A DNA stretch of 52,856 nt from Rhypophila decipiens (lineage: Eukaryota > Ascomycota > Sordariomycetes > Sordariales > Naviculisporaceae): positions 1-52,856 of the forward strand of contig MU858280.1 in the NCBI GenBank assembly GCA_033297075.1. The letters are read 5' to 3'. Within the stretch, counting starts at the first letter, position 1. Every line of letters starts with the position of its first letter. Below are positions 9,465 through 52,600 of the stretch, piece by piece. Below the pieces are notes generated by a model. It did not search any database. It worked only from the letters and a program-made list of their open reading frames with translations, and was not told where the DNA came from. Made by a program: the position numbers and the translations under genes.

Positions 9465-12400
9465 TCAAAACTCATCCACAACACAACCGAGCTCCGTAAT
9501 CACCTCCCAGGCCGTCTTCCCACTCTTGTCTCTGATCTTGGTGTCCACCACTTGCCGGTTAGGCCCAAGCTTGATGTCATCCTCTATCTCTTGACCCAAT
9601 TCTTCCATATCTAATTCTTCGTCCTCTGTCGACACAGACACAGTTCTACCAGTAGTACGATTGAAGTCAAGAAAAACACGCACAATACTCATATTCCCCG
9701 TTCCGGCGGCAACATGGAGCGGTGTCTGGCGCTTTCTATTCATTGCGCTAGGATTGGCATTTAATTGTTTGATCAGGTAGTGTATGATATCGCCCCGCTC
9801 TGCGCTTGCTGCCTTGTGTAGCGGTGTATTTCCGTATCTGTCGCGGGCGTTGACCATTTCTTTCACGTTGGCCGTGGTGTCTCTTTTGGTGGTGTTTCTG
9901 GATGTACTAGTCAGGAGCTTTATTATCTCTGTTGCTGTTGACTTTTCATGCTCTAGGTCGGAGTCTTTGAAACGCGAAGTTGAGGGAGAAGGAAGTGAGG
10001 AAGCTGAAGCAGAGGCAGAAGCAGCGTAATGTAAAGGCGTGGCGTGTTCGTCGTCCATTGCCATTAGTAGCTTTCGTACGATATCGGCATCAGCATTCAC
10101 CTGCTGCTGCTCTGATAATAACAATCGGACGACCTCTACCTGCCCGGCTTCGACGGCGACGTGAAGGGCTGTTGCCCCGTTGTTGAGAGCCTCCCGGACG
10201 GGGTCCGAGCCGCGAGTGAGCAAGAGCGACGCCATGGACAGGTGACCTCTTCTACAGGCAAGATGGAGGGCTGTCTCGCCGTGCTTCGTCTGGACCGAGA
10301 TGGCGCTCGGTGTATGTTGCAGCAGGAGCCAAACCAGATCAGAGTTTCCTGGAGATGAATGACAGGCAAAGTGTAAAGGTGTCCAGCCGAGTTTGGTTCG
10401 TTGGAGGGGGTCAGCGCCGCATTGTAACAGGAGCCAGGGAATAGTGCCACTGTTGCTGTTTTCGGGCTTGGTCCTTGATGATGATGGTGGCGCGAAGCTA
10501 CTACCTTGTTGGTTGGTGCTGGTAGTAGATGCCCAGGCAGCCGCGGCGGCATGCAGCGGAGCCAGTCCCTTCTCATCAGCTTTGTTCACATCTGCCCCGG
10601 CCTGCAGCAGAAACCAGGCGACCATCCCGTGGCCATACTCGACCGCCATGCGCAAGGCGGTCCACCCCTGATCGTCCGTCACGTCGAGGTCGACTCCGCC
10701 GCGCCGGGTACGGGGATGTCTGTTGCCTTTGCCCCCTGAAATGCTGTTCCCTCGGGTACGGCTGCTGCTTCTATTATGCAGGCTCGCCTTTTCTACGATG
10801 CGGCGCACTAAACTCAGCTGCCCGTGGCGCGACGCGTAAAACAGCTGGCTCGACACGTCCCCTAGTGAAGCACCGTGGTCGATGAGCAACTCGGCGATCC
10901 GGCCGTGGCCGTGAGAGTTGGCCCACTGAAGCGCCGTGAAGCCGTCGCGATCTTTGGCGTTGATGTCGGCGCCGTACCCGAGCAGCGCCTGCACGATCGC
11001 GAGCTGACCATGGGCGGCGGCCCAGCGGAGCGGCGTCCAGTTCTGGCTGTCTTTGATATCTGATCTAATCTTTGGTCTAATCTTGTCCGGTATAATCATG
11101 TCTGATGGATGGAAGAGCGCGTCGATGCATGCCGTGTTCTCACCCATGACGGCCTGGAGCAGAGGGGTCTGCCCTTTATTGTCCGTGATGTTGGGGTTCG
11201 CCCCGTTCGTGATGAGGACCTTGACCACAGCGCTGTGCCCGTATGATGTCGCCCAGTGCAGTGCCGTTTCTCCTCGTATTGTGACGGCATCAGGATCTGA
11301 GCCTCTTTTGATCAAGTTGCGAGTGAGTCGGTCAAGACCAAAATAGGCGGCTACATGCAATGGCCAGATGTCCCGCTCGCTTCGGAAGCGGTAGTCGGTC
11401 ATGACCTGGAATGCGCGGGTCACTGGGGCGGGCTTGTAGAGGAAATCTTGCGCCAGCTTATGAATCGCTTGACGCCGCTGTTGGTCCCCTGACATTACGG
11501 CCATGTGTCGGCCCCAATAGTCTGCTGCGTAGTTGTGGAAGGTATGCTTTTGCTTTTCTGTCTTCCCCACGGAGGGGCTGGTGGGCAGCTGAGGGGCGAG
11601 GAAGTCGGGAGAGAGGAGATAGAGCAGGCACGCTTCGGCCAAGATGGCCTGTGAGTCCCCAAATGGCTTAAAGATTGTCGAAGTGTGAGTTTCTACGTAT
11701 GTTCGCGTCGTATAGTGGGCTAGACTGACGGCCTGGGTGACCGGGTCCACTACCAGCAGACCAACACAGACCGAGGTGAGAACATCCTCGGCCACAGGCC
11801 CCTGAGGTTTCTTCAAGCCTGTGTCGTTGCTGCTTTCCAACGTGTTGACAGCCAAGGCATCCAAGAGTTCGGGCATGGTAAGAGCCCTCTCAGCAAACAC
11901 GAGCCATCGAAGTGTCGCAATGGCCAATGCGTGCCTTGCTGGCTTCTGCTCTGCTATGCGCTGCAGCGCCAGCTTGTACACCTCATCGGGAGTCTTTGGT
12001 AGTGTCTTGAGCCCGGCCTCAAATTCCTGGATGGTGAGTTTGGAGGCGAGAAAGTCCATGTGGAGACGAGCGAGAAGGAACCTAGACAATGGAATCGCGG
12101 CGTAAGTCTTTGATAGCTTCATGCATTATTCACCCAGCGTGAAGTATACTTGCATTCCATCAGATCTTTCCACCACTTTGTTAACCACTTTGTTCAAAAA
12201 TGTCATCGTCTTCAGGGGCTCTGAGAGAGGTGTATCTGCCGTCCTCAGAGCCCGGGAGATCTCTTCATCCTTGCTTTCGACCAGTTTCTTCAACTCCCTC
12301 CGCGCATTAATGCGACTCTTCACGTAACTGGCCAATTCGCTTTCGGTTGCAGCGATGCTGATTCTATCATCCGGGTTGACGAGGGACTTGATGCTTTCAT

Positions 12401-13497
12401 CATGGCGTGAGAAGAAGAGGAGTCGGGTGTTCGCCTCGGGGAGCCGTTGCAAGGCGCGAACAAATTCGTCTCGTGTGTTGAGCTCGTCGTCGTCTTGACA
12501 CTCGTCGAGCGCGTCAACCACAATGTAGACCCTGTTGAGTTTCTTGATCTCGGAAGCCAATACATCAAGGTAGTCGTCGAGGGTAGGAGGTATCCCCTTG
12601 AGCCGGTAGGACTGGTGCAACTGGTTAACCTCCTTGGATGCATCATCACGCTGTCGGACCAGTTGAGCCAGAAGGCAGGGTAGTATGTTGTTGGCATCCT
12701 GACGCCTCTGATCTCGGTGGTCAAAGTACACGTAAAGACAAGCACTGGTGCCGTTATCTCTTCGCTCTCTCTCGAGATGATCTATCACGACGGAGCTGAA
12801 GCAATGCAGAGTCAGTCAACTGTCGTCCAGAGGCTGCTATGATGAAGAGGCGGCATACCACAAAATAGTTTTGCCCGCGCCGGCTTTTGTGCCAATAATT
12901 AGTACGATGAAATGTTGGTGTCGAGTGTCTGGTGGTAGCTTGGGAATCTTACGAATACCATGACACCACAAGGTCCTGAGATCCTCCTCGTCTCGCCACC
13001 GACAGAACTCGTCCTTCTCCAATAACCGCTGTCCAGTCCCGGGCGTCTTCCTGGCTATCCTGATGGCCTGGACCTGTTTGTCTGCGAAACTCAGCGGCGT
13101 AAGGTGCGACAACCAGTTGATGATCTGTGGTACGTTTTTGGTGTCTGGCCTGGGTGTTAGCCCTGTACGTTACCCTACCCGACTTGAAGCATGTGGTTAC
13201 CATAAGGAATAAACTTACCTGCTACGTGGCTGTGAAATGCTTTTGATGGTGTCAGTTGTGGACCCGGGGGATTGGTTCGTGTGCTTTGATGTCAATGATT
13301 GCCTGGCTGGCGCTTCAAAGCCTTCAGGAAAAGTGGGCTGACCGCAACAGCAGCAAAGACGTACCGAAGTTGATACCACCCGTATTATGAACGTTTTCGG
13401 CGATAACAGATTGTTGGGCATCTCGTAACGCTGTACGGCTATTCGTGCTCGGGTATTGTCCCGCCCCCTCCGCTGCCCGGTCGTTTTGATGTGTCAT
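9465..13497 (-). CDS. NACHT-ankyrin NLR (STAND) protein with N-terminal amyloid-like motif
   Basis: Six-exon model: 13497-13365, 13321-13219, 13149-12953, 12883-12859, 12795-12154 and 12081-9465, giving about 1238 residues. Residues 1-44 are a short low-complexity leader ending in SVIAENVHNTGGINFG, which resembles segments in the two neighbouring genes. After a Ser/Pro linker comes the region typical of fungal NLRs (WLSHLTPLSFADKQ, PGTGQRLLEKDEF). The NACHT domain has Walker A GIPGAGKT at about residue 145, built across an intron, and Walker B VYIVVDALDEC. The winged-helix region contains DGMFLLARLHMDFLASK, also built across an intron. The C-terminal half is about a dozen degenerate ankyrin repeats. 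Family knowledge: such STAND NTPases oligomerise on ligand binding by the repeats and activate effectors. Intron 1 is short (43 nt) and its acceptor is ambiguous by a few codons; intron 5 uses a GC donor. Confidence 0.87.
13324..13497 (-). other. NLR first exon: candidate prion-like signalling motif
   Basis: ATG at 13497 (context ACCATGAC) opens a 44-codon exon ending just after GGINF and a donor GTACGT. The last 20 coded residues, RDAQQSVIAENVHNTGGINF, align without gaps to the C-terminal repeat of the small protein at 16071-16670, with 8 of 20 identical. In fungal NLRs of the HET-s/NWD2 and SesB-related systems, this exact position (extreme N-terminus, before a flexible linker) carries the amyloid-forming motif. 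I infer the same here. Confidence 0.6.
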
Positions 13498-14084
13498 GGT
13501 CAGGACGCCGGTGACGGAGACTGCCTTGTAGTTTTGTTTCAAAGTACGGTGGGAATTTATTGCATATCGATGGCGGGGTTTGTTACTCTCGGCCACTATT
13601 CTGTAATGTTTCCGTTGTCCAGTGCAGTTTCCCAGGTAGGTTTCTAGAGGGGTCACTGACTCACTGTCTGCTTTGAAGCTAGCCCCTCGCTGCAAAGGGG
13701 GCGAGCATGGGCTGCCTGTTCCTGCGAATTCTGAGCAAATGGAATAAATGGGAAAATGAGGAGGGAGGATTATTGCTGCTCTGTCTGAGGCCTCCTCCCG
13801 CTGGATGTTTTGTGAGTGAGGCTCTGACTTTCGTTGTGCCATCGTTCACGGAATTGAGCGGACATGCAATACTGCATGCGGACCTTGCGTTTTTGGTATA
13901 GTGTATGTAGTGTAACAGAGCCATGACGGATCTATTGTCTCTGATTGGCTTTCGGCCATTTCCGCTGGTGCCCTGCAGCCGCCGACTCCCACCCGGGGAA
14001 GGAGGTGTGGTTCGCGAGCCATGTCACAGCAAACTTGGAAGGTTTGTTGTGGAGCCGAATTTCGCAACTTTCGATATGTCCTAG
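13498..14084. promoter_or_regulatory. Intergenic region between hydrolase and NLR genes
   Basis: 587 bp separate the hydrolase stop from the NLR start; both genes are on the minus strand. No gene is visible. It must contain the hydrolase terminator and the NLR promoter. No TATA box stands out. Confidence 0.5.
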
Positions 14085-15419
14085 CTAGCTACCATTGAAA
14101 GTCAGGTCACCATGCACAATCTGGTTTCCATTGACCACGTTCGACTTGATCACGTCGCCCCAAATTTCGATTCCTCCATCTCCGTACATTCTGGATGTCA
14201 CCTTTGATGGCAGTCCAGAAGCACTTCTGTTGGATGCACCACCAGTTTCTCCATTGACAAACGCAGCCGAGTTGCTCACGGACGCGGCAAGCTCGTTGAC
14301 CAACTGTTGCAGTTCACCGACAACGGCGTCGAACCCCGGCGAGTCTTCGGTTTCAAACCGGGCCATGTCCCTGTGATGGGCGTGGATGCCGATGCCGGTG
14401 TAGCCCGGGAGGACCGCCGAGTCGGTTGATACAATAACATCCCCGAGACCCGGGTACTTGAGCTCCTCGTAGAAACACGACACATGCAGAGCCGGCCTGG
14501 TTTGCAGAATGGTGTAAAACTCGGTCTGTATCCTCGCGAGCACCTCGGAATCTTTTTCGAGCACTCGGAGAATACGCAGGTTTGACTTGGGCGTTGTTAG
14601 CGATAAAACACGGGCCAACCTGTGGGCTGCAGTCGCCAAGCTGGCCCCCGTGTGCGGAGTGCCGAGGAAGAGAATGCCCCTGGTGCACTCGTAGATTCGT
14701 CTCAGACGCTCGTCTGCGCTGGATCTCGACGTGAGGAGAGCCTGAATTTGCGTTGTGTCAGCGAGGTGTGAGTGGCCGGTTATTGACGGCAGTTGTAACT
14801 CACGTCCTTGCACACAAGCCCTCCGAGGCTGTGCGCAACAAATATGATGGGCCTATGGGCCTATGTATTGATTCTGCATGGTTAGCTGCATATGCGCCTG
14901 TCCGAGGAGGGTTCGTGAAGCTTGCCGGCCGTACACTGCACTGCTTATCTTGGCGATGCCGGGCAAGAGCGGCAAGAAGATTTTTGGAGTGATCTCCGAT
15001 TCGGTTCACCGAAACACTGGCTCGCCAAGCGATAGGGTTTGCATCGTATCCAAATGTCATGATCCGGATGTCCGGCATGCGGAGCGGCAAGAGTGTCTGT
15101 GGCCATGGCGGGCCGCCGCTTCCTTGTGACCATGTTTGCTCTCTGTGCCCTTTGATGCCGTGGACAAATATCACACTGTGGCAATGCGATGCATCAGAGG
15201 TTAACCTTGATCCCTTTTAATCGAAACTCGGCGAGACCAACTGCGGACGTACTCAGCTATTGGATCTGATGGATTGTACAAAACTTTAATGCCATATGGG
15301 TTCGAATCGGTTGTGGGTTTTGAGGTAGTTTTGTCATTAAAGGTGCTCGAGGGAGATAAGCGCCCGATAAGCTTCTCAAAGGAGGAGGTTCTTTTGGTCG
15401 GGGAAGTGGTGATAGTCAT
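14085..15419 (-). CDS. Alpha/beta-hydrolase (DUF676/SERAC1-like) effector with C-terminal amyloid-like motif
   Basis: Exons 15419-15253, 15175-14935, 14860-14804 and 14741-14085 give 373 residues. The oxyanion region DVIFVHGIKGHREQTWS and nucleophile elbow FVAHSLGGLVCKDALL are each rebuilt by splicing. Further family marks are GILFLGTPHTGA and a catalytic-His block HAHHRDMARF. This is the lipase/serine-esterase fold used as the effector in SesB-type fungal systems. The last residues, DVIKSNVVNGNQIVHGDLTF then NGS, form a Gly/Asn/Val-rich tail after a Ser-rich linker, where fungal effectors carry their amyloid motif. It lies directly upstream of the NLR on the same strand. An alternative ATG at 15518 would add 33 residues but runs through a 19-bp tandem duplication, so I prefer 15419. 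The substrate is unknown; membrane lipid is an inference. Confidence 0.85.
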
Positions 15420-15420
15420 C

Positions 15421-15458
15421 GTTTCCGGAACCTTGCAGCGTTTCCGGAACCTTGCAGC
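15421..15458. repeat. 19-bp perfect tandem duplication at the hydrolase 5' end
   Basis: The unit GTTTCCGGAACCTTGCAGC occurs twice head to tail. It abuts the preferred start codon of the hydrolase (ATG ending at 15417). Because 19 is not a multiple of three, it shifts the frame of any upstream start, which suggests it lies in the 5'-UTR. Confidence 0.9.
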
Positions 15459-15519
15459 GTTGCCAGGATTTTCAGCCGCAATTCGAGTTTGGTTTGGACG
15501 CCTTTTTTTATGCAACATG

Positions 15520-16070
15520 GAGAGAGATTTTTGGAGTTTGGATCCTTCAGAGAAGGAGATAAGGGGGAATGGGAAGGGCACCCAGTTGAAAGGGTTGTCC
15601 CGCTAATCATATAATTGCATCTCACCGACTTCTGTCTCTCCAAATGTGTCTAGTGCTGATTGGGGCAAAGTTTGCCTCGCTGCTACTGTGCTACACTAAG
15701 ACAATGCAGCGATACCCAACCTACATATCAGTGCAGGCACGAACTTGGCCACAGTGGTGGTACTTCTGGTGAATGGGTGCTGCATGTTCCCTTTAGGAAT
15801 TTTGTGGAAGGACTAATCCGAATATTGCATCCTTCCAATACTGACCCGAATTTGGATCCGTTTTCTTGCATGTATGTGTTAATTCCTTAATGGGCCCTGT
15901 GCTTGTCACTGCTCAACACTAAGAGCCTAACCTCAAGTCCCTGTGGTCTCTCTTTGCCTAGCGCCCTACATAATACTGCGCATTTCGCCACGTCGGATTT
16001 GAGCTACCCAGTCTGAACTACAGGACCACCAAGATTCTGTCTCAAATTTGGCCACGCAGTTACTACTAAG
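15520..16070. promoter_or_regulatory. Shared divergent promoter of the hydrolase and small motif-repeat gene
   Basis: About 550-650 bp between the two start codons. No coding frame is convincing. The head-to-head arrangement would allow co-regulation of the two putative signalling partners; no specific operator was recognised. Confidence 0.5.
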
Positions 16071-16670
16071 ATGTCATCAACGCCCGAGCTGGTCCATCGT
16101 ACTCGTACGCCCCCAGTGGTGTCAAGTCCCCGCAACTACAAGACCCATCCAGGCGTGGTTGCTGTCCAACAACAAAACTTGGTCATGACTAGGGTGAGAC
16201 TTCTTTTTTCGTACCGTCCGTATGTGTCCCCTCACTCCTTACTAATCATCACATGCTATGGTACAAAAGGGACATGCCACGCCTCGAACCGTGGAATCCA
16301 CCGCCTTCTTCGACGTCCACGGAAACCCGGTCCATGCTGTGGTGACGCCGGCTCCGGCAGCTCCCGCCGAGAAGCCCAAAGTGGTCCTGCAAGGCAACGT
16401 CTTCCAGTCCATGGTCCAAACAGAGCTTGAAGAGGAGGGTCGGATTCAATTCAAGGGGAATTTACCAGCAATACCAACATCGTCGGTAGGTTTGACGTCC
16501 CTAAATCGCCGTGTAACGTGCTAATTAGTACCAATTGGTAACAGCAACCACGAAGGCCGGAAAATACCGGAACCTCGCAACCAGCAGCGGGTATAACCGT
16601 GCAGGGAGACGTAGCTCAATGTGTGGTGGGCATCAAAGTCAAGTCGAAAGGGGGGATATCATTTGGATAA
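16071..16670 (+). CDS. Small protein with two copies of the amyloid-like motif
   Basis: Three exons (16071-16193, 16270-16485, 16545-16670) with GTGAGA and GTAGGT donors, phase 0 throughout, give 154 residues. No enzymatic domain or signal peptide is visible. Two related segments end exons 2 and 3: GNVFQSMVQTELEEEGRIQF (residues 83-102) and GDVAQCVVGIKVKSKGGISF (134-153, with one Gly after). They share the pattern G-(N/D)-V-x-Q-x-x-V-x3-(V/L)-x3-G-x-I-x-F, a 21-residue spacing like the pseudo-repeats of the HET-s beta-solenoid. The second copy resembles the NLR N-terminus. Two stacked copies could form a two-rung solenoid. It is divergent from the hydrolase gene and convergent with the disordered-protein gene (121 bp apart). 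Function is inferred only: an adaptor, amplifier or decoy for the NLR. Confidence 0.72.
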
Positions 16671-25207: not shown

Positions 25208-26410
25208 GACATTATAAGTGAAATGAGAGATGAGCTGGAAGGCTCGTTCTGATGAGGCAAGTGTGTGTCTCGCCATTTTTAGCAACGGCAGGTGGAGATT
25301 TTGGGTGTGATGCGATTAGATTGGCTCCGAAAGGTAGGAAAGAAAGTCAAAGGTGAATAAAAGCTGTGGAACGAGCTTAATGGAAGTGACACTTTCGGTC
25401 TCTGTATTTTGTAATATTTGATGAACGGACTCATTTCCAATATCTCTTTTCCGGTTCTTGTTTCTCACCTTTGGACCTGCCCGGATTTGTCTTGAGAGCT
25501 GTTGCTGGTGATGTCACCGCGTTCTTTCCTTTTCTTGTTTTATTTCCCCGCTATGACATGCACACATCCGGTGGCCCACCGGGCTCACCGATGCAGTCGC
25601 CTGGGAGTCGGGACCCGCCGACCTTGCTCCCGTTTGCTCACCCGACTCGAATCCCCCGGTATGCCTTGCCCTCCGACTCCACTGCAGTCTACCGATTCCG
25701 TTCGATAACGCCTTACCGGGAAGCATATGATGCTATTCCCCGGCACTCAGCCGTCAGCGTCCACGTGTAGATCCCCTGTCACTGAGCTGAAAACAGTGCA
25801 CAAGGTGGCTTCCGTCATGTGTCGCGTGTCTTCTGTTTGGTCTTTTTTACCGTCCTCCAACGTGGGTGCCGCTCACTTTGTTCTTTTTGCTAAATGACAT
25901 TCCAAGCGAAATATAATCAATTCGCGATATTTCATTGGCAGTGAGGCGGTGAGAGCGATGAAATGTTTGCAACGTTTGCTGGTGTCTCAGTGTGTGTGGG
26001 TGAGTGCATCCAGGTTACCGAAAGGGAATGGCCAGCCAAGCTGTCGTCTTCAATTGTGATGTGTCGATACGGGACACCCAAGCCGGTGGGCATGTTTGGG
26101 TGTTTGCATGGTCGTAAACGGGCGGGTGCGTCGAGGAGCAAGTTGTGGCTGGCCGCACCTTCCCCTGGTAATGATGTGATATGTCAGATCTGACGAGCCC
26201 ACATCAATGAGGAAGTTGCGGGTGCGAGTCTGCCACATATAAACTTCCCAGTGTGCTTCCTTCTTCATTCCGTCAACCCGGTCAATTTCCTCTTTTCAAG
26301 ACTCGCCACCTTTCGTCCAAATTCCAACCCAAGATTCCTCTCACCGCCAAGCAAGTGTCTCTTCGACTTTTCTGCTTTTCTGCTGTCCACACACCATTAC
26401 CCATACCAAG
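25208..26410. promoter_or_regulatory. 1.2-kb upstream region of the HET gene
   Basis: No gene is visible; open frames at 25471-25770 and 25963-26193 lack any protein-like pattern. A TATAAA at 26238-26243 and a pyrimidine-rich leader from 26270 to 26400 precede the HET-gene ATG. Confidence 0.5.
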
Positions 26411-28228
26411 ATGTCTTCGACTAGTTCTACTTCCCCTTTTCAATATCAACCTCTCAAGTCCTCCGAGATCCGCGTGTTCAAGATTCTCCCTGAGTTTGAC
26501 ACCCTCTGCTTCGAGCTGAAGCACATCAACCTCTACAACGAGCCCGGCGAGTTCATCACCGTTTCGTACGTGTGGGGGAACCCACCGGGTACAGCCGAGG
26601 CCAGGATCAACAGATCCAGGCATTCAATTACCCAGAGTTTGTCGCAGGCCTTGCGACAGTTCCAGGAGCTGGCGGGCACCGCTACTCGTCCGGAAAGTCC
26701 GTTGGCCGGCCTAACTCCACCCTACTGGTTCTGGGCAGATGGGATCTGCATAAATCAAGAGGACACGGATGAGAAGAGCAGGCAGATTCCCATGATGGGC
26801 GATATCTATTCGATATCGTCAAGGACTCTCAGCTGGCTTGGGGATATTCCCTCCGACGTCGACCCCGGAAGCCTTGGTCAGCTCTTTGAGATGGCGGGAA
26901 GACTTGCATCACATCCCAAGAATGAAAAATGGGATGCAGTCGTACAAGGTCGCAGGATATACCGGGATTGGACATTCGATCCATGTTTTGAGCCGGTTTT
27001 CTTCGCTTGGTGTTGCCTGGTGAGGGCGGAATGGTTCAAACGATCCTGGACTCAACAAGAGGCTGTCATTTCCTACGACAAAGCATTCCTGAGCGTGGGG
27101 CCCTGTTTCTGTACCTTGAAGGGATTTGTTCTGGTGTCGGACGCGATAGACGCCATCATCGTTGACGAAAACTTACACCCCAGGACAGAAGGCTGGGTGG
27201 ATCCGTCCGTGCTGGCAGTACTTGGTATACGGTCGATCAATGACACAATCCCTCCGATACTTTCCACCCGAAGACAACAGTCTCATTTACCTCAAGCCCT
27301 TCAAGATCCTGACCAGGGTCTCAGTTTATTTGCCGATCGGTACCTAAAGGTGCTTTTAAGTATGGGAGAAAGGAAGGCAACCATACCACACGACCTCATC
27401 TATTCCAGGTTGGTTATCAGCGCCGTTTCCGAGCTGCCGAGTTATCTCGCACCGAACTACCGCGTACCCTACCCGGAAGTGTGTTTGTCATATTTCAAAG
27501 TGATAATTTGTTATACTCCTTTCTTCACATTCCCCCTAACCCCGATTGCCCAGGGTCCGAAAGCCCATCAGACCTGGATTCCTGATATGGGAAGGGCCGA
27601 GATGCTCGTTTCTGTGTTGAGACCCAAAGACTGTTTTTTGATCAAAGTCTCCGACGACGCGAAACTCCTCACACTTCGCGGCCTTCAGGTGGATATCGTC
27701 GCTGCGGTATGGCACCCGGGTAACTTTAAGATGACGCTACCCTCAGCAGTGCACGAAAAGTACGCAGAGTTTGTACACGAAGTAGTGGCGAGGTCTGCAT
27801 TCTTGCAGAGACGACCATTGGAAGTTGTGAAGAAGGAATGCCTATCTCGGATGCTAAACCTTTTGTGGGAAAATAATGATCTCGATAAGTTGTGCAAGGA
27901 CTTTGAGCTTGTGGGCCAGGGATTTGCCCCTCGGGAAGAACACCGGGACCTTGGAGATTTCGTCGCTGGGCTGGAGGGCTATTTTCGCAGCAAGTATAAG
28001 GTTCTCATCACCTTGCGGGGGTTGGTCTTTCAGGCGCACCGGCTTTCCGCACCAGATCCCGGCGACATCATATGCAAACTTGTGACCACAAGAAACAACT
28101 TCTGTCTCCGTCGCCGTGGAGAGTACTTTGAATACGTTAGTTATTGCTTTCCGTTAGAGAATTCCAAGCAGGAACCTGAGGGTCAGGCTCTTGATGGACC
28201 AGATGTAGAGCTCTTTCATCTAATTTAA
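26411..28228 (+). CDS. HET-domain protein
   Basis: One exon from ATG at 26411 (context CAAGATGTC), 605 residues. The heterokaryon-incompatibility domain spans about residues 40-220. Its blocks are FITVSYVWGNPPG, YWFWADGICINQEDTDEKSR followed by QIPMMGDIYSISSRTLSWLGD, and WFKRSWTQQEAV. Family knowledge: HET domains share a fold with TIR domains and trigger programmed cell death on non-self recognition. The C-terminal 380 residues are the usual variable region and show no repeats. Positions 27479-27553 have good intron signals (GTGTGT donor, CTAAC, CCAG) and a length of 75 nt. The enclosed protein (YPEVCLSYFKVII) fits the family, so I kept it as coding. Confidence 0.9.
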   Translation: MSSTSSTSPFQYQPLKSSEIRVFKILPEFDTLCFELKHINLYNEPGEFITVSYVWGNPPGTAEARINRSRHSITQSLSQALRQFQELAGTATRPESPLAGLTPPYWFWADGICINQEDTDEKSRQIPMMGDIYSISSRTLSWLGDIPSDVDPGSLGQLFEMAGRLASHPKNEKWDAVVQGRRIYRDWTFDPCFEPVFFAWCCLVRAEWFKRSWTQQEAVISYDKAFLSVGPCFCTLKGFVLVSDAIDAIIVDENLHPRTEGWVDPSVLAVLGIRSINDTIPPILSTRRQQSHLPQALQDPDQGLSLFADRYLKVLLSMGERKATIPHDLIYSRLVISAVSELPSYLAPNYRVPYPEVCLSYFKVIICYTPFFTFPLTPIAQGPKAHQTWIPDMGRAEMLVSVLRPKDCFLIKVSDDAKLLTLRGLQVDIVAAVWHPGNFKMTLPSAVHEKYAEFVHEVVARSAFLQRRPLEVVKKECLSRMLNLLWENNDLDKLCKDFELVGQGFAPREEHRDLGDFVAGLEGYFRSKYKVLITLRGLVFQAHRLSAPDPGDIICKLVTTRNNFCLRRRGEYFEYVSYCFPLENSKQEPEGQALDGPDVELFHLI

Positions 28229-42592: not shown

Positions 42593-45539
42593 TCAGAGTA
42601 TCCTCACAGTCTTCATTCTTCCGTCCATATTGAATTCATCAATAGCGACCTGAGGCCAATCATGACAAAGTATCAACTCGTCATCTCGGTGCGATGGCCT
42701 GAGGTAAATGTTTGTTTCGTTAAGTTCGCAGTTGAAGTACGACCGGGCGCCAGCCAGCCGTGAAATCGCTGCGGTGCATTTGCATACTTCAACAAAACGT
42801 CTTATCTCGTAGATCCTGGCCCTAACATATGTGACTTCGCCTCGAGGTCTCATATCCTGTTTAACCACGAGCTCATTGATGTTTCTCCAGCCAGCGATAT
42901 CGCTATTGTCGTCCAACCACTGCCACTGGATCTCGGTTCTGGAAGCCAGGCTGCTGCAGTGCTCCATGAACGACAGCCCTTTAAAAGGCTCCAACTCATC
43001 CCCATACAACTATCAGTGTACAAAATGCCTTCAAAGGTGTAGCACTCTCGTAGCAGTTCCCACTCGCTCACGGTGAAGTAGAAGACTAGGTGGTCGTCCT
43101 CGATTTTGAACTTCTCGTCTGAAAGAGCCACCTTAAGGCAGGTTTTATATGATTCGAGAAACCCTGGGGAAATGCCCCGGAATTCGTTCATGAGACCCTG
43201 AATAACGTCAAGAGCAAGTCGCTCACAAGGCAACATACTGGCAAATAACTGTGCGAATGTCTTTCGATCGTCTTTGCTGAATTTCCACCGCTCATGATTG
43301 TAAGCACTCCGTAGCGGATATAAAGCCCTTTTAGCCTCTGCCTGGATGGTCCAAAGATTGTATGAAATCAATTTCCTGTTCAGAATGCGATACGGGCGGT
43401 CTCGTCTCTCCCAAGAGCGGTGAAATTCTGGTGGTGGCCCATTCGCGATCAAGAATAACAACTTCACCACGAAGCAGACGACGATCTTGTAATCCCCTGG
43501 AGTACCCAGCTTGCGCAGGATAAGCACGAGATTGCCCATACCTTTGCCTTGTTCAAGAACAAAGAGTTGATGCGGGCTATGGCGGATAATGCTGCCCAAG
43601 TCTTCTCGTAGAGTAGAAAAAAAGAGTTTGCAAGAGTCAGTATTAATCTGATGAGTGTAGAGGTGATTGTCATCTCCCTGTGTGCTCTCCGTCTGGCCAA
43701 TATCTGTACAGCGTCTTGGACTGCTGTCAAAATCAAGGAGATGGTACAGAGTTAGGGTGAGACCCGCATTTCTTGAATTGACAGACGAGCCCTGGGGCCA
43801 TGATGGACGTTTGATGTCGGTCCAGCCTCTTTGAAAATCAGGTATCTGACTGTCCTCGAGTATGGCTATATGATATCTCGCGCACTGACCCATGCACCTT
43901 TTGATAGCAGCGATCCAACCGGTGTTCCCAGGCCAATATGGGAGGTCCAGGTAGTATTGTGGTGGTGTTGCTAGTGAAAATATCCACGATGGCACCCATG
44001 ATGGGTAAGGACATGGAGCTTCCATACCTATCGCGTGTGAGAGTAGTTCGTCATGCTCGAGGTTTAACAGCAGGTGGGCTAAGGTTCCTATTAAGGTGTG
44101 TGCGCGAGTGAGAAGATAATTGGGTCTGAGAGGCCAGGCAGCATCGGAATCCCCGTATGTATATTCAAATAACCCTAGAATCCCAAATACTTTGTCGCGG
44201 GGATCAGTTGCTTGGGATTCCCATGTCTGCTGCAAAATTTCCCAGACGTCACCTCTCATGTGTGTTCCTTTGGCGGTGTGCTGAAACCACGGTGTTCCGA
44301 GTTCTGGCCATGGCGACCGGATGAGGCTCAAATGCTTATCATACAATCAAAACAGAATTAGCTATACATTCGAAGAAAAAAAAAAAGAAAAAAAGAAAAA
44401 AAAAGACGCACTGTGGTATGATAGTATCTATGGGCAATCATTGTGTACTTTGGCTTGAGGATAGAGGATGAAGCTGACTGGGAATCAGTGAATCGTTTTT
44501 TCGATCGACATACCTTTTTTACTCCCTCCTCCGAACTGGGCTGACCCGGTACGAGATAACCCCAAGGTCGGTACAGTGACCATTTATTGATAACGCGTTC
44601 AATTGACTGTCTTGTTACTTGAAACTCTACCTTACCAAATGGTATAATTGTCCAAGGGGCAAGTATTAGCTCCTGTATGACCCAAACACGACTGAAATAC
44701 CTTCGTCGGAATAGCTCATGCAGCTAAATCGACGTTCTCTCAATATCGTCCAGACCGCACCGCAACGGGTAAGAATCTCGGTTTTGGGCGCAAACCACAT
44801 CATTCCCCAGGTAGACGACGAGCCGCATTGACCGCCGATAAGTTTCACGCATGGCATCGACCTGTTCTGCTCGTTCCCGTGGATCGCCCTGATTGATACA
44901 AATAGCGTCAATCCATACGTTTCTCGTCCTGTTCCGAGGTCTCAGGCATTGCAGCATCGACCAACAGTTTGGGGTCTGAAACAGAATATCCCAGTTGGGG
45001 CCGATAAATACTGGTTTTGACAGGGTATAATCACCGTCTTCTCCCCCCCATGAATAAGACGTAGCCTCGTATTCCGGACAGTTGTTGCGATCATACGTCT
45101 CCAGCGTTAGATGAACTAGGGGGTCGGCGTGCTCTGGCGCTTCGAGAGAGACGAGGCGGAACTCTCCAGCTTTCAGAGGGCGTGAGTAGACCGTGGAAAT
45201 TGTGGAAATTGAGGACTTGGAGGATCTTTGATGACACAAAACATCCATTTCGGAGGACCCAGAAACGGCAGATGGCTCATCATACAGCCAACGAAGGCCG
45301 AAGTCCGAGAGTCCTTCATCACCGCATGGGCTGTCTTCTCTGTATGGAACACATGGGGGCCAGTACAACCCAAGCTGACCAGCAGGCTCATCTGGTGGGA
45401 CTGTCCATGGAGGATCCGGAGCATGCTCTAGGGCCGTGATGTCGGTATCAGATGGAGCTTTCTCGCAGTTGCGGCATCGAGGCAGCACACCGTCTACGAA
45501 AATATCGGGATTGTCGCAGTTTGTGTGCCAACGGGACAT
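42593..45539 (-). pseudogene. HET-domain pseudogene
   Basis: Exon 1 runs 45539-44514 and exon 2 from 44334 to 42593; the 179-nt intron carries an A/T-run tract at 44372-44406. The HET blocks are present: YEATSYSWGG, VWIDAICINQGDPRERAEQV, MRLVVYLG and, beyond an in-frame TAG at 44724-44726, LHELFRRRYFSRVWVIQEL. The TAG sits where the family is continuous; CAG is a likely ancestor. Exon 2 is long, with QQTWESQATDPRDKVFGILG typical of the post-HET region. A second lesion at about 43007-43013 shifts the frame between FEGILYTDS and YGDELEPFKG; the remaining frame runs to a stop at 42593. It is a recently inactivated incompatibility-type gene or an allele decayed by mutation. Confidence 0.8.
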
Positions 45540-45915
45540 GGTAAAGGGGACCGAGCAGCAGCTGAGGTGAGGTGGAGTGTTGGTTGTCTTGTAACGTTGA
45601 ATACCGAGTCAGGTTCTTCGATTTTGCTGAGATTGAGGAGGAAGGTGAATGGTGTTGGGTCCAAGTTGCTGGGGTGGGTGACAGTGACACTGACACTGAC
45701 CATGGAAGCTACAATCCCCTCTCGGTGAGATCTCAACAGATGCGTACAAAAGCGGATCACAAATCACGCTCGAAGCGCCGGTGTGACGTTTCGGGGTCTC
45801 ACCAAGCAGGCACATGTGCTGAAGCATTGGAAGGAGGAAGGCGCGATGCCATGCAGTGTACGTTGAAATCAGCGCTCCACAATTCAGTACAAATACAATC
45901 CTGATATCCAAATTC

Positions 45916-47327: not shown

Positions 47328-48337
47328 ACTGATTGACTTCCAGAAACGAAACGGCGGCCCTCAGTGCTCGGCTTCTCCACGGTAAGTTTGGAATTAATAA
47401 GAAGTATCGCCTGAAAGTCTTAAAAGGATTTGGGGAACATGTGGTATCGAACCTGCTTGGCGTTGTGCGACCTGTGTAAGTCGGTCGAAACGCGCTGTGC
47501 GCAGTAATACTTTGGGCACTCGATTCAGCCCGACAATAGCTGCTCAGAAGCTAAGTTCCCCGGGAAATGGTGGTACCGACCTCACGGGGAGCTCTCTCGG
47601 CAAATAGCTGCTTGATATTGGACCGTGACTCTATCGTGATATTCTCTTTGCCGATCTAACTGGCTGGTGAAACGTCCACAAGCTGCAATATCCACGCGCT
47701 CAAAGTATAGGTGCGGCAAAGAAAATGGATGATTGGCCAAAGCTGCGTCAAAAATACGGCCGATTATGCACTCATCTGCAGAGCAGCCCAAAGACCCAAT
47801 CCTGTAGCCTCATTCGGGTTGAATCTGCTGCTGGTTGGGTAACACAGCCGGTCTGTAGGTCTTCTGGTGTGTCGACAACTGCTGATCATGCCCAAGGTGG
47901 GCAGCTGTCAATTTTATTGCTGCAGACACGGAAAGTACCCGAGCTCGTTGCATTATTTTCCCTTCAGCCTCACTTTTTATCGAGGGGTCGCTGTGCAGAA
48001 TATGCAGGTATCGTACGATGTGTCCATATTGTGCGGCATTGTCCTGAAGGGACCCAATTCATGCTTGACAATTGGCGATCGATAAAGTACGTTGATAAAT
48101 AAAATGATCTGAGAAGTGGAGTAAATGTGAATTCACGAAGGATGTCACGGTAGATGGGAAAAGTTCAAAAGGTGGTTCCTTCCAAAGGTACCGAAGTACC
48201 TTCTCTAGTGTGTATTGTGTAACGGGTCTCAGCAAAACCTGCCTGTTCCGCACAACACTGTGGATTCATCAACTTGGAAGGTACGACCTCTCCAGATTTT
48301 GTCTTTCTATTGTTATCATTGCTGCCGCACCAACACA
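47328..48337. promoter_or_regulatory. 1-kb region between divergent genes
   Basis: No gene recognised. It should hold the promoters of the membrane-protein gene (minus) and of the coiled-coil HET gene (plus). A T-arm-like string near 47450 does not fold into a tRNA. Confidence 0.45.
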
Positions 48338-51300
48338 ATGCCACCATTCGATCCAAGCCAAATTGACCTGCCCAAGCAGGCCGCAAGAGCCAAAACCAGA
48401 TTTGACCGTCTCGACTTCCGAGAACCCGGCAATGTCGCTGCTCGAACCCGCAAAAAGCACCTGGAAGATGAGATCAAGTCGTTGCAAGAGGAGGAGGAGA
48501 AAGTGAGACACAAGATGGCTGAGATGCGAAACAGCTACTTCTCCAGGGCAGAGGCAGACGAAGTCGAGCGCTCTTTCTTGCAAATGAATGCGAGATTTGG
48601 CGAGATGAAGCCAGAAACACAGGCCCTGTGCGACAGAGTCGGGAAGCAGATCGACGAAACCAAACGAGCTTTGGTTCAAGCTTTGGCTCCGAGGACCTCG
48701 GTTAATTCTGAGGGAAAGGCTACTTCTCACGGGCTGGAGAGAAAGAAGAGGGCCCTTGCGCGCTGTGAACGTGACCTGAAGATATTTACGCTGAAGGTCG
48801 GAAATCTCGATTTTGACACTCGAATGGTAGAGCAAGATCTTGAGCGTTTGAAGCAGCGCCTGGTCGCTTTGAGGAAAGAGCGAGCATCACTGAGAAAAGG
48901 GAGCACAGGATCTATCGACGGCGACCACCAGGATCAGGAATACGAGTTTAACTCCGCGTACGACTCGGATCAAGTCACGACAGATCACTCACCTGATCGT
49001 GTCAGCTCGCCTACCACAGAGCGGACAGAGAGCGAGAAACTTGTTGAAAGACCCTCCTCACACACTTCAGGTGATGAATCCCACGATAATTTCGTTATTC
49101 GAAACACAGACGACACTCTACAAGACGAACCACAATCCACTCGGGCGACCAAGCTCTCGGATGCCGACATTCAACAAACCGAGAACGGCGAGGAGCATAA
49201 TTCGGATAGCGAGAGGGAAGAGTTTCAAAGCCTCAAAGATGAGCAGGTGGTTGAGTCGGTCCGCCAAAACGGCCATCAAGATCTCGATGAGAAAGGCGCG
49301 AGTCGAGGAAAAGAGGCGCAGCGAAACAATTCGGACGATGGGAAGAATAATGATGGAGACGAGAACGGCCCGAACGGGGGAATTGATGCACAGAATATGG
49401 TACCGTCGCCGATGGACATGACAGTGGAAGAAGCCAGCAAAAAGAGTGACGGTGTTGCGAGCATTGACAAGGAGGAAAAACGGGCTCAGAAAATAGAATC
49501 ACTCACGAGCGAAATAACTGCGGTAAGAACCTTCCGCGATCAGCTGGTTAGGAAACAGAGGTCAAAGTTGCAGGAGAAGGAGTCATTGAAAAGGAAGTGC
49601 ACCGTGTTAGAGGGAAAGAAACAGGAGATCGACAAAGACATCGCAGAGTTGTCTTCAGCAAAGGATAAGAAGAGGGGAGTAGGCGCGTTGGAAACAACGA
49701 ATGATGATAAATGGCAACTGAAGAAGAGGGAGGACCAAAAACGCGAAATTGAGGAGCTCGAGAGACAGAAGCAACGCGACAAAGCACTGAGAACGGTCCG
49801 GATGGAATCGGCAAAGAATCTGCGCAATGGAGCTGGGTTCATGGAACGGAACTATTATGTCAGCAGGAGACACCATGGCAGATGGCCTCCGCCTCCCAGG
49901 ATGCACCGGATACCCCATCGCCGAGTATATTACGACTCGAACTCTGAATCGGATTTGTACATGGCCGATTCCGATCACTGGTCAAGCTCACAAGACTCGG
50001 ATTCTGACGACCAGGAAAACACCGAAGACAACCACTTGAAATCTCTCCGGAAGATCATTGACCAGGTGGAAGACCTAGAGGAGAGTATTCGCACTATACG
50101 AAAGCTTGGCGAGAAATTGGACACAATGGTGGACTTCCGGGTCGTCCTGGAACGGGAGCTTGACCTGGAGACATCATGGCTGGCTACGCAACAGCTCCGG
50201 GCTGGCCAACAATCCACGATATCAACGTCGATAAACCTGATCGAGAGTGGTACGGCTAGGGACCATCTCACCGCTCCCCTCAGCCCAAGTCAGTTGGACT
50301 TCTACAAACCTTTGAAGAAAAACGAAATAAGACTGCTTGTTGTGTGGCCCGCTAAATCCGACCACCACCCTCTGTTGTGCTCATTGCAGACCTCATCATT
50401 GGGAAAAGGCGAGCAGAAACCCAAGTACGCAGCGCTTTCTTACAATTGGGGATCGCCGCTTGTCAATGGAAGGCTCTATCTCGTCCTTCAAGATGACCTG
50501 ATGGCCGGTACGTCACCCGACAGCTGGGGATCGACAGCACGGTACGCGCTTCGGATTCCAATCCGCAACAACCTCTTCAGGGCCCTTCTTCGCCTGCGCC
50601 GACCAGACCACCCTGTATCACTCTGGGTCGACTTGATGTGCATCAATCAGAACGATGCAGTGGAAAAGACGGACCAACTGGAGCAACTGATCGAGATCTA
50701 CCGCAATGCCGATAACGTTTGCATTTGGTTGGGCGAGCGCGATGATGAGGGACGGAGCGATGAGGCCATGGACTTTGTCACATCTATCATGGACTTTGCC
50801 GTCCTAGACAGATATGCCACAGATCCAAAACAGGCCAAGAAGTGGCAAGGGCTTGCAGAGCTGATGAGGGACAGGTGGTTTTCCAGGCGCTGGGTTGTGC
50901 AGGAAATATCTTTGGCTCGTCGGGCCACTCTTCACTGCGGAGGGAAGACAGTTCAGTGGCTCGACTTTGCAGACGCCGTGTCTCTTTTGGCCTCTAATCA
51001 GGATGCCATCAAGAAGTTATTCGATTACAAGGAGTGGCGAGACGGACCAAATACGCTTGGAGATGTCAACTCGTTTGGGGCTTATGTGCTCCTCGAGGCT
51101 ACCAGCAGACTATTTCTTCGCACTGCCAAGGGTCGAATCACGAAGCCCGTGAAGAAGTTGGAAGCTTTGGTCACATCTCTCAAGACTTTCGATGCCACGG
51201 ACCAGAAGGACCTGATTTACAGCTTGGTTTCCATTGCCTGTGACACACCGCAATCCCGAAACGTATACGACCAAATGGCGGGAGAGACGGCCGAGCTAAA

Positions 51301-52600
51301 GGTCAACTACAGCAACAAAGCCATTGATGTTTACAAGGATTTCACCCGATTCTGTCTGATGTCTTCGAATTCGCTGGACATTTTGTGCCGGCCGTGGGCA
51401 ATGCCGATCAAGTTCGAGTCGGAGAATAACCAAGATCAGCCGCCGCCCAGCGTCACGCTGCCCTCGTGGATTCCCATGCTCTCACGATCCGAGTTTGGTA
51501 ACCCCGAGGATGTATATAGCGGGCGCAAGAACGGAGAGAACCTCGTCGGTCCGGTCGATAGGCCACGTTACAGAGCATGCGGCGATACTACTTATGATAC
51601 GGGCCTGATAAGCGATGCTGAGACATTCGGGCAGAACGACATTCTCCCAATGAGAGGTTTCAAGTTGGCTAGGATCACCAGAATATCACCGAGGATCACC
51701 GGTGGCGTCATTCTTCGTGAGTCGATTCAGATGGGGGGATGGAAAGGCATCGAGCATGACACCGTCAGTGTGCCAGACCAGATATGGCGAACTTTGGTGG
51801 CAGACAGGGACCAAGACGGGCAGATCCCGCCAACCTGGTACCAGCGGGCCTGTCTTCGGTGTCTCGAAATCGCCGACACCTTCAACAACGGGGATCTGAA
51901 CATCAGCGAGCTCTTGCAAGGCAACTCGGAGCTCATACGCCAGTACCTCACGCGTGTGCGCAACGTCACCTGGAATCGACGCTTCTTCGAGGCCATCTCC
52001 GTGGATCCGCGGACTGGCATTAGCGTGGAAACTGAAACTGAACCCTCATCATACCGCGACCATGACGACCAAGAAAACTCGTCCAAGCATGAGACTATTT
52101 CTGGCTATTCAGATTCCGAAATCGACTCCAACAATGACGCAGACGACCTACACGCAAGCCAAGAAGAAAACAACTCTTTTCAGGATGTCCCATACTTATT
52201 TGGCCTAGGACCACCCACGATCCGGGAAAACGATCTGGTATGTGTTCTCGATGGGTGCTCTGTTCCCATCATTCTGCGAGAAATCTTCAATCTCCCTGCC
52301 GCCACACCGACGCCAAGCTCTCCTCCCACGCTTCTCACACACGAATCTCTACGTGACCTGGCCAATGCTACCGAGCCGGAACCTGCGGCTGAATACGATG
52401 TCGATGAAGCCATCAACATACCACTTCCCCCTACGCCCCCTCCTGTGGAGCCCAACGGCACAAATCAACAAGGTCAAGGACCATATATGATGTTCATTGG
52501 CGAGGCATATGTGCATGGCAAAATGGAAGGTGAGGCTCTTGACGACTTGAAGGACGGTCAGAGCTTGGGAAGTGGGAAGGAGATATTTGAGGTCAAGTGA
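48338..52600 (+). CDS. Giant coiled-coil protein with HET domain
   Basis: A single exon of 1420 residues from ATG at 48338 (context ACACAATGCC). An upstream in-frame extension lacks an ATG in good context. Residues 1-190 and 385-500 are strongly charged Lys/Glu/Arg/Leu helices (KKHLEDEIKSLQEEEEKVRH, QDLERLKQRLVALRKERASL, REIEELERQKQRDKAL), i.e. long coiled coils. They are separated by an acidic Ser/Asp/Asn-rich linker. The HET domain lies at about 680-870: YAALSYNWGSP, PVSLWVDLMCINQNDAVEK, ADNVCIWLGERDDEG and WFSRRWVVQEISLARRATL. A C-terminal region of about 500 residues ends with Pro-rich and acidic segments and ENDLVCVLDGCSVPIILRE, a common HET-protein tail. Coiled-coil fusions of this length to a HET domain are unusual; oligomerisation-driven activation is an inference. 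Confidence 0.93.
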   Translation: MPPFDPSQIDLPKQAARAKTRFDRLDFREPGNVAARTRKKHLEDEIKSLQEEEEKVRHKMAEMRNSYFSRAEADEVERSFLQMNARFGEMKPETQALCDRVGKQIDETKRALVQALAPRTSVNSEGKATSHGLERKKRALARCERDLKIFTLKVGNLDFDTRMVEQDLERLKQRLVALRKERASLRKGSTGSIDGDHQDQEYEFNSAYDSDQVTTDHSPDRVSSPTTERTESEKLVERPSSHTSGDESHDNFVIRNTDDTLQDEPQSTRATKLSDADIQQTENGEEHNSDSEREEFQSLKDEQVVESVRQNGHQDLDEKGASRGKEAQRNNSDDGKNNDGDENGPNGGIDAQNMVPSPMDMTVEEASKKSDGVASIDKEEKRAQKIESLTSEITAVRTFRDQLVRKQRSKLQEKESLKRKCTVLEGKKQEIDKDIAELSSAKDKKRGVGALETTNDDKWQLKKREDQKREIEELERQKQRDKALRTVRMESAKNLRNGAGFMERNYYVSRRHHGRWPPPPRMHRIPHRRVYYDSNSESDLYMADSDHWSSSQDSDSDDQENTEDNHLKSLRKIIDQVEDLEESIRTIRKLGEKLDTMVDFRVVLERELDLETSWLATQQLRAGQQSTISTSINLIESGTARDHLTAPLSPSQLDFYKPLKKNEIRLLVVWPAKSDHHPLLCSLQTSSLGKGEQKPKYAALSYNWGSPLVNGRLYLVLQDDLMAGTSPDSWGSTARYALRIPIRNNLFRALLRLRRPDHPVSLWVDLMCINQNDAVEKTDQLEQLIEIYRNADNVCIWLGERDDEGRSDEAMDFVTSIMDFAVLDRYATDPKQAKKWQGLAELMRDRWFSRRWVVQEISLARRATLHCGGKTVQWLDFADAVSLLASNQDAIKKLFDYKEWRDGPNTLGDVNSFGAYVLLEATSRLFLRTAKGRITKPVKKLEALVTSLKTFDATDQKDLIYSLVSIACDTPQSRNVYDQMAGETAELKVNYSNKAIDVYKDFTRFCLMSSNSLDILCRPWAMPIKFESENNQDQPPPSVTLPSWIPMLSRSEFGNPEDVYSGRKNGENLVGPVDRPRYRACGDTTYDTGLISDAETFGQNDILPMRGFKLARITRISPRITGGVILRESIQMGGWKGIEHDTVSVPDQIWRTLVADRDQDGQIPPTWYQRACLRCLEIADTFNNGDLNISELLQGNSELIRQYLTRVRNVTWNRRFFEAISVDPRTGISVETETEPSSYRDHDDQENSSKHETISGYSDSEIDSNNDADDLHASQEENNSFQDVPYLFGLGPPTIRENDLVCVLDGCSVPIILREIFNLPAATPTPSSPPTLLTHESLRDLANATEPEPAAEYDVDEAINIPLPPTPPPVEPNGTNQQGQGPYMMFIGEAYVHGKMEGEALDDLKDGQSLGSGKEIFEVK

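Follow-up and report, generated by a model that had tools for sequence, protein, structure and literature searches.

Amyloid-like motifs have been reported in about one sixth of the short N-termini of fungal NOD-like receptors (NLRs), and only four kinds of motif are supported by neighbouring effectors according to the text of the same survey (PMC9815663). The ses locus of Nectria haematococca, which encodes the het-eN NLR, SesA and SesB and is marked by the sigma motif, consists of three neighbouring genes; as described in the text of PMC3321046, the motif is found at the N-terminus of a NACHT-ankyrin NLR, at the C-terminus of an alpha/beta hydrolase, and in a third protein. In Chaetomium globosum, where the PP motif is used, the NLR PNT1 appears to control two proteins, HELLP and SBP, the latter a putative lipase (PMC5485727, text), and sesB homologues bearing a C-terminal PP motif are known from PP loci (PMC3321046). 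In the HET-S/NWD2 system, a motif of about 21 residues (the HET-s motif, with the HET-s-related amyloid motifs HRAM1-5) is present in one copy in the NLR and in two in its partner (PMC4518210, text). PUASM and GDQN motifs likewise pair an NLR N-terminus with an effector C-terminus, the former going with PNP_UDP, the latter, once, with SesA (PMC9815663, PMC12261475, text). The contig MU858280.1 (52,856 bases; the whole contig is called the window below) of the ascomycete Rhypophila decipiens (Sordariales, Naviculisporaceae) carries side by side the genes of an NLR, of a SesB-like hydrolase and of a small 154-residue protein, and these three genes are the subject of the present analysis.

The layout of the Rhypophila locus is that of a known kind of fungal NLR amyloid-signalling cluster, as described in the text of PMC3321046 and PMC5485727. 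By analogy with the systems listed above, the three genes may form an NLR cluster that signals by a shared motif of amyloid type, a reading to which we give a probability of about 0.62, and the motif would probably pass the signal by amyloid templating. The motif family and the third component are best read as new, as far as published text shows. A preliminary description of the window had placed four motif segments in three adjacent genes, and all four were located in the sequence, the NCBI models mapping exactly. Its proposal that the genes make up an NLR amyloid-signalling system is partly supported, by the layout and by the maintenance of the motif in relatives, but the sequence link between NLR and hydrolase is weak. 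Genes and motifs are the following:

9465..13497, minus strand: NLR gene, NACHT-ankyrin, 1209 amino acids (NCBI model P0121), from the exact mapping of P0121 onto the contig
13366..13425, minus strand: NLR N-terminal motif RDAQQSVIAENVHNTGGINF, residues 25-44, in exon 1, from the P0121 mapping
14085..15419, minus strand: SesB-like alpha/beta hydrolase, 373 amino acids (NCBI QBC37DRAFT_298226, P0001), from the exact mapping of P0001
14088..14177, minus strand: hydrolase C-terminal motif GGIEIWGDVIKSNVVNGNQIVHGDLTFNGS, defined by a tail pattern present in 32 of 120 listed homologues
16071..16669, plus strand: small two-motif gene, 154 amino acids, proposed in the present analysis, an open frame across two GT-AG introns
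16381..16458, plus strand: motif r1 VVLQGNVFQSMVQTELEEEGRIQFKG of the small protein; its score against the hydrolase-family profile is reached by 0 of 1500 real windows
16590..16667, plus strand: motif r2 GITVQGDVAQCVVGIKVKSKGGISFG, at the C-terminal end of the small protein; its score against that profile is reached by 1 of 1500 real windows

Models of the NLR and of the hydrolase are those of NCBI; homologue searches were made with earlier models, which differ in introns and are identical in the motif segments.

The NLR matches the Pfam families NPHP3_N (134.6 bits), NACHT (32.4 bits) and Ank_2 (294.8 bits); the 11 NCBIfam matches, most of them in the ankyrin part, are all under their own cut-offs. 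The motif is located in the short N-terminus, ahead of the NPHP3/NACHT region, which starts at residue 87. The motif cores of the small protein, GNVFQSMVQTELEEEGRIQF at 16393-16452 and GDVAQCVVGIKVKSKGGISF at 16605-16664 (plus strand), both reside in its C-terminal half. The NLR motif and r2 share 8 of 20 residues without gaps, the same number that had been counted before. Similarity was measured as the best ungapped 20-mer, a maximum taken over all positions and thus free of segment choice. NLR N-terminus and small protein reach a score of 39 in the window strain, attained by 2 of 1000 shuffles and, among 828 real 80-residue pieces set against the small protein, by one only (P0120, 42; the next scores 33). 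The NLR of a second R. decipiens strain scores 43 (0/1000 shuffles). Gapped local alignments of the small protein with the NLRs of the window strain, of the other strain and of Podospora aff. communis were matched by 4, 1 and 13 of 2000 shuffles, and these NLRs rank 8, 4 and 8, respectively, among 666 real pieces.

Within the small protein, r1 is similar to r2 (18/1000 shuffles), and the two are found at an offset of 51, which leaves 30 residues between 21-residue repeats. Positions 11, 13 and 15 of the motif are E in r1 and K in r2. Shuffling r2 gave as many opposite-charge pairs in 67 of 10000 trials, and in 420 of 10000 when only its 12 non-hydrophobic positions were shuffled.

The neighbouring enzyme is a SesB-like alpha/beta hydrolase by its fold, its nucleophile motif and its homology to sesB. 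HSLGG, the serine nucleophile motif, is nearly invariant across 44 homologues, proteins deposited as sesB-related are among the homologues, and DUF676 is matched with 22.8 bits (cut-off 20.3). The AlphaFold2 model (mean pLDDT 71.7, a per-residue confidence score) has confident core stretches and falls below 50 at residues 330-344. Among the best 50 Foldseek matches, thioesterases, lipases and other alpha/beta hydrolases prevail (E from 6.6e-8), but the TM-scores to the model are low (0.28-0.39). In PDB, the single sequence found no match and the hydrolase alignment one esterase, BlEst2 (E 0.00014); NCBIfam has no match for either the hydrolase or the small protein. The hydrolase has 61 matches in the genome, 4 of which are its own.

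The tail of the hydrolase corresponds approximately to the pattern I-x-I-x-G-N-V-x-x-S-x-V-V-x-G-x-Q-x-I-x-G-x-L-x-F. The 32 proteins that match it among the 120 homologues listed (of 731 found, its own protein included) come from organisms such as Rhypophila (Sordariales), Thelonectria (Hypocreales), Apiospora (Amphisphaeriales) and Acephala (Helotiales, Leotiomycetes); none of 23 NLRs matches it (143 proteins scanned in all). The set of 32 C-termini selected by eye from the 120 omits P0001, and includes P0092, which the stricter pattern misses. The motif shows a mean pairwise identity of 55% in 30 motif carriers among 44 aligned homologues, compared with 19% for the 30 linker residues ahead of it and 56% for the catalytic part. 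The tail is therefore conserved about as much as the enzyme while the linker drifts, which is the profile expected of a signalling motif. Searched in the 45.7 Mb genome, the consensus peptide of the tail family marks a single place, the hydrolase of the window (1 candidate scored).

A hydrolase-family profile was made from the 19 sequences that remained of 22 hand-picked rows once the two R. decipiens strains and P. aff. communis had been taken out. None of 300 column permutations did as well against both motifs of the small protein, and in HMMER 1 of 9000 shuffled sequences scored higher than these motifs. When the motif sets of NLRs and small protein were combined, 1 of 300 permutations did as well. 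Of 1500 real windows, 4 score as high as the first motif copy of the P. aff. communis NLR (P0123) and 23 as high as the motif of the other R. decipiens strain. Pairwise, the hydrolase of P. aff. communis resembles the small protein (1/2000 shuffles); that of the window is at chance level (727/2000). The statement that the hydrolase tail shares the motif thus holds through the family profile set against the small protein, but not through the pairwise comparisons of the window strain, with the small protein or with the NLR (898/2000).

NLR and hydrolase both keep the motif in the other R. decipiens strain, in which P0122 and P0002 are encoded on contigs of equal size (86,722 bases). The same holds in P. 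aff. communis for the NLR P0123 and the motif-bearing hydrolase P0028 (contigs of 683,158 bases). The equal contig size suggests that the two genes are linked in both relatives. The motif of P0122, GDAKQSIIAGNVHNTGGINF, is identical to the NLR motif of the window at 16 of 20 residues. P0123 has two motif copies, GNVNKSIIADSVENAQDVNF at residue 38 and GGFEQSILANKLDIHGAVNY at residue 68; the former shares 7 of 20 residues with the window motif, and the self-similarity of the two copies within residues 38-87 is reached by 18 of 1000 shuffles. Inspection by eye of the N-terminal 210 residues showed no motif in the remaining 20 of the 23 NLR homologues. A loose motif pattern, applied to 250 residues of all 23, finds P0122 and P0123 only, and misses the NLR of the window, the motif of which has R in first position.

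The preliminary description had proposed a comparison with the HRAM, sigma (Ses_B) and PP profiles. The Pfam profiles HET-s (PF11558), PP/Ses_B (PF17046) and sigma (PF17106) match none of the three locus proteins. The Ses_B profile matches the homologue P0046, which served as control; no scanned sequence matched PF17106, and the sensitivity of the sigma negative is thus without a positive control. The PP pattern FxGx(x)NxGLQLxGxNxGxL fits at 2-3 of 11 positions, as in shuffles, and its NxGxQxGxN core is absent from the locus motifs. Fits no better than those of shuffles were also found for the GxGxQFN and GGTQN repeats, of which the sigma motif of the ses locus consists, for the PUASM pattern FxGxGxQxxGxGxF, with no PNP_UDP partner at the locus, and for the GDQN pattern. 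The Rhypophila locus differs in this from the ses locus and from loci with PUASM or GDQN motifs, and, with both the PP pattern and the Ses_B profile unmatched, from PNT1/HELLP/SBP.

Other differences concern the small protein. SesA is remotely homologous to HeLo and HeLo-like domains (PMC5485727, text), whereas the whole small protein matches no Pfam family up to E 10, HeLo, HeLo-like and SesA included. PDB searches with its sequence and with both motif alignments gave unrelated, chance-level matches only. Compared to HET-S/NWD2, r1 and r2 keep most hydrophobic positions and the charge complementarity, but the protein has no HeLo or PF11558 match, the gap between the repeats is longer, and r2 ends the protein. 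Direct homology to HET-s found no support in the Pfam profiles or in the comparison of the locus segments with the genome's own HET-s-type domain, to which they show no similarity (lowest 155/1000). That domain, a HET-s-type prion-forming domain of 90.4 bits on another contig (G000:C71:1764-1958, minus strand), is the sole match of PF11558 found in the genome. The Ses_B profile has two genome matches, both barely above the cut-off (G000:C222:47986-48036 and G000:C352:57-110). Literature searches, and the text consulted in PMC3321046, PMC5485727, PMC9815663, PMC4518210, PMC12261475, PMC12881547, PMC12258605 and PMC8086366, turned up no GNVxxSxV-type motif. An unnamed motif of PMC9815663, the logos of which stand in figures and supplements outside this comparison, could be this very motif.

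Several results weigh against a cluster that signals by this motif. The NLR motif is present in only 3 of 23 NLR homologues, the window gene counted among the three, and the pairing in relatives is read from equal contig size only, adjacency not being seen. The best ungapped 20-mer of the P. aff. communis NLR and the small protein scores 30, as do 68 of 1000 shuffles. The hydrolase-family profile is weak against the NLR motif set (14/300 permutations); 85 of 1500 real windows score as high as the NLR motif of the window and 341 as high as the second copy in P0123, 2 of 14 windows outside the motifs outscore the window NLR motif, and in HMMER no NLR domain is found with a meaningful score. Hydrolase and NLR, compared pairwise, are matched by 898 of 2000 shuffles in the window strain, 1906 in P. 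aff. communis and 110 in the other strain. Moreover, the hydrolase motif is one residue longer, and its tail is modelled by AlphaFold2 with low confidence, as two short strands. Equally good alignment of shuffled sequences had been named beforehand as a result that would count against the motif; the small protein and the NLR do better than shuffles (2/1000), the hydrolase and the NLR, pairwise, do not. Since the small protein matches both the hydrolase profile and the NLR, while these match each other weakly, it lies near both partners, which are themselves weakly alike. Chance or composition could account for the pairwise comparisons of the window hydrolase, but is very improbable as the source of the shared segments, given the shuffle, permutation and real-window controls and the conservation in relatives; for the similarities of the small protein, the HMMER control disfavours it too. 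Some of the rival explanations could hold together. NLR and small protein may form a signalling unit by a divergent HRAM motif, the hydrolase motif being a separate look-alike family with another partner. Eight HRAM positions, taken from the text of PMC4518210, were considered: hydrophobic residues at 5, 8, 10, 16 and 18, a polar residue at 3, K/R at 15 and G at 19. Six are kept in r1 (shuffles 0.04) and seven in r2 (0.00), and the hydrolase motif, with 4-5, is at chance (0.95, 0.51); opposite charges at stacked positions of r1 and r2 are also known from HRAM pairs (PMC4518210, text). We nevertheless hold a divergent HRAM motif unlikely: the NLR motifs keep 4-5 positions, no better than shuffles (0.12-0.52), the gap of 30 residues compares with loops of 6-18 residues in 154 of 155 HRAM proteins (PMC4518210, text), and the hydrolase profile matches r1 and r2. 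That the genome's own HET-s-type domain resembles none of the segments points the same way, as does the lack of a PF11558 match, a weak argument because just 38 of 155 HRAM proteins match this profile (PMC4518210, text). The view that the motif falls outside the HRAM, sigma and PP classes agrees with the profiles and with the PP and sigma patterns; as r1 and r2 keep most of the HRAM hydrophobic layout, that it is unrelated to HRAM is not secured.

Other doubts concern the small gene. If it were unreal, a two-gene NLR-hydrolase pair would be left, with two motifs in a pseudogene or old fragment. A search of 5.8 billion proteins would fit this, since it gave 36 candidate homologues, none with E up to 1 (candidates were limited to 0.55-1.75 times its own length, about 85-270 amino acids), as would exon 3, for which, taken by itself, two other frames score higher; both results also count against a three-part cluster. 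The own genome holds no paralogue, the three exons being the sole match. Yet the exons are open and the intron ends canonical, over the whole gene the codon score of frame 0 (0.013) is the highest of the six frames (the next is -0.064) and close to that of the adjacent ORF (open reading frame; 0.021), and r1 and r2 both fit a profile built on sequences of other species, a fit that drift would erase; an unreal gene is hence quite doubtful. In a variant within the best explanation, a cluster signalling by a shared motif, the small protein would be a decoy or brake: by capping or titrating the NLR template, it would set the activation threshold of the hydrolase. This would suit a protein that carries two motifs but lacks a recognisable effector part, closer to NLR and hydrolase than those are to each other, but the charge-complementary repeat pair looks built for polymerising, and such a role seems unlikely to us. 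From sequence alone, the protein could be amplifier or brake.

The gene models are made of the following parts:

13497-13365, 13239-13219, 13144-12953, 12883-12859, 12795-12154 and 12081-9465 with stop, minus strand: six exons of the NLR gene (P0121)
15419-15253, 15175-14935, 14860-14804 and 14741-14085 with stop, minus strand: exons of the hydrolase gene (P0001)
16071-16193, 16270-16485 and 16545-16669, plus strand: predicted exons of the small gene
15420..16070, no strand: region of 651 bases that separates the hydrolase gene from the divergently oriented small gene, from the gene models

The 651-base interval may be a shared promoter. Directly upstream of the hydrolase start codon, a 19-base unit is found in two identical head-to-tail copies (15420-15457). 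The hydrolase gene is upstream of the NLR gene on the same minus strand, and 587 bases separate the hydrolase stop from the NLR start. The NCBI model of the NLR includes a GC-AG intron (12082-12153, minus strand) and a 21-base exon (13219-13239, minus strand). ARAGORN predicts an antisense tRNA-Leu (CAA) within an NLR exon (11627-11722, plus strand), which may be a false positive. Three more ORFs with HET (heterokaryon incompatibility) domains are on the contig, at 26243-28225 (plus strand), 44727-45608 (minus strand) and 48209-52597 (plus strand), and the region is therefore rich in likely self/non-self genes.

Oligomerisation, amyloid formation, order of templating, enzyme activity and outcome are inferred here by analogy with HET-S/NWD2, ses and PNT1/HELLP/SBP. 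In a cluster of this type, the ankyrin repeats would sense a ligand, upon which the NACHT module would oligomerise and gather the N-terminal motifs, and these could fold into a cross-beta template. Judged by its sequence, the small protein would be a third component made of two motifs and a stalk with no known domain, without a recognisable effector part, which is unusual for such clusters. It may polymerise on the NLR template and amplify the signal, its motifs forming a two-rung stack with the acidic r1 upon the basic r2; this role of amplifier or dedicated relay is proposed tentatively. The hydrolase, with a single motif after a flexible linker, would be recruited by its tail, and its lipase or esterase activity may in this way be concentrated or unlocked, with membrane damage or cell death as a possible result. 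SERAC1, a related human lipase, is tied to membrane lipids (PMC4986451, text).

It is conceivable, though we lean against it, that the GNVxxSxV-type motif defines a separate amyloid-signalling family across SesB-like hydrolases of Sordariomycetes and Leotiomycetes, with a dedicated relay in Rhypophila. The conserved tail of this widespread hydrolase family provides a ready set of enzymes in which control by NLRs can be tested. If the relay is true, the small protein would be the fungal counterpart of an inflammasome adaptor, the NLR seeding a polymer that recruits the enzyme. A third component made of motifs only would then mean that fungi, like animals, place an adaptor between receptor and effector.

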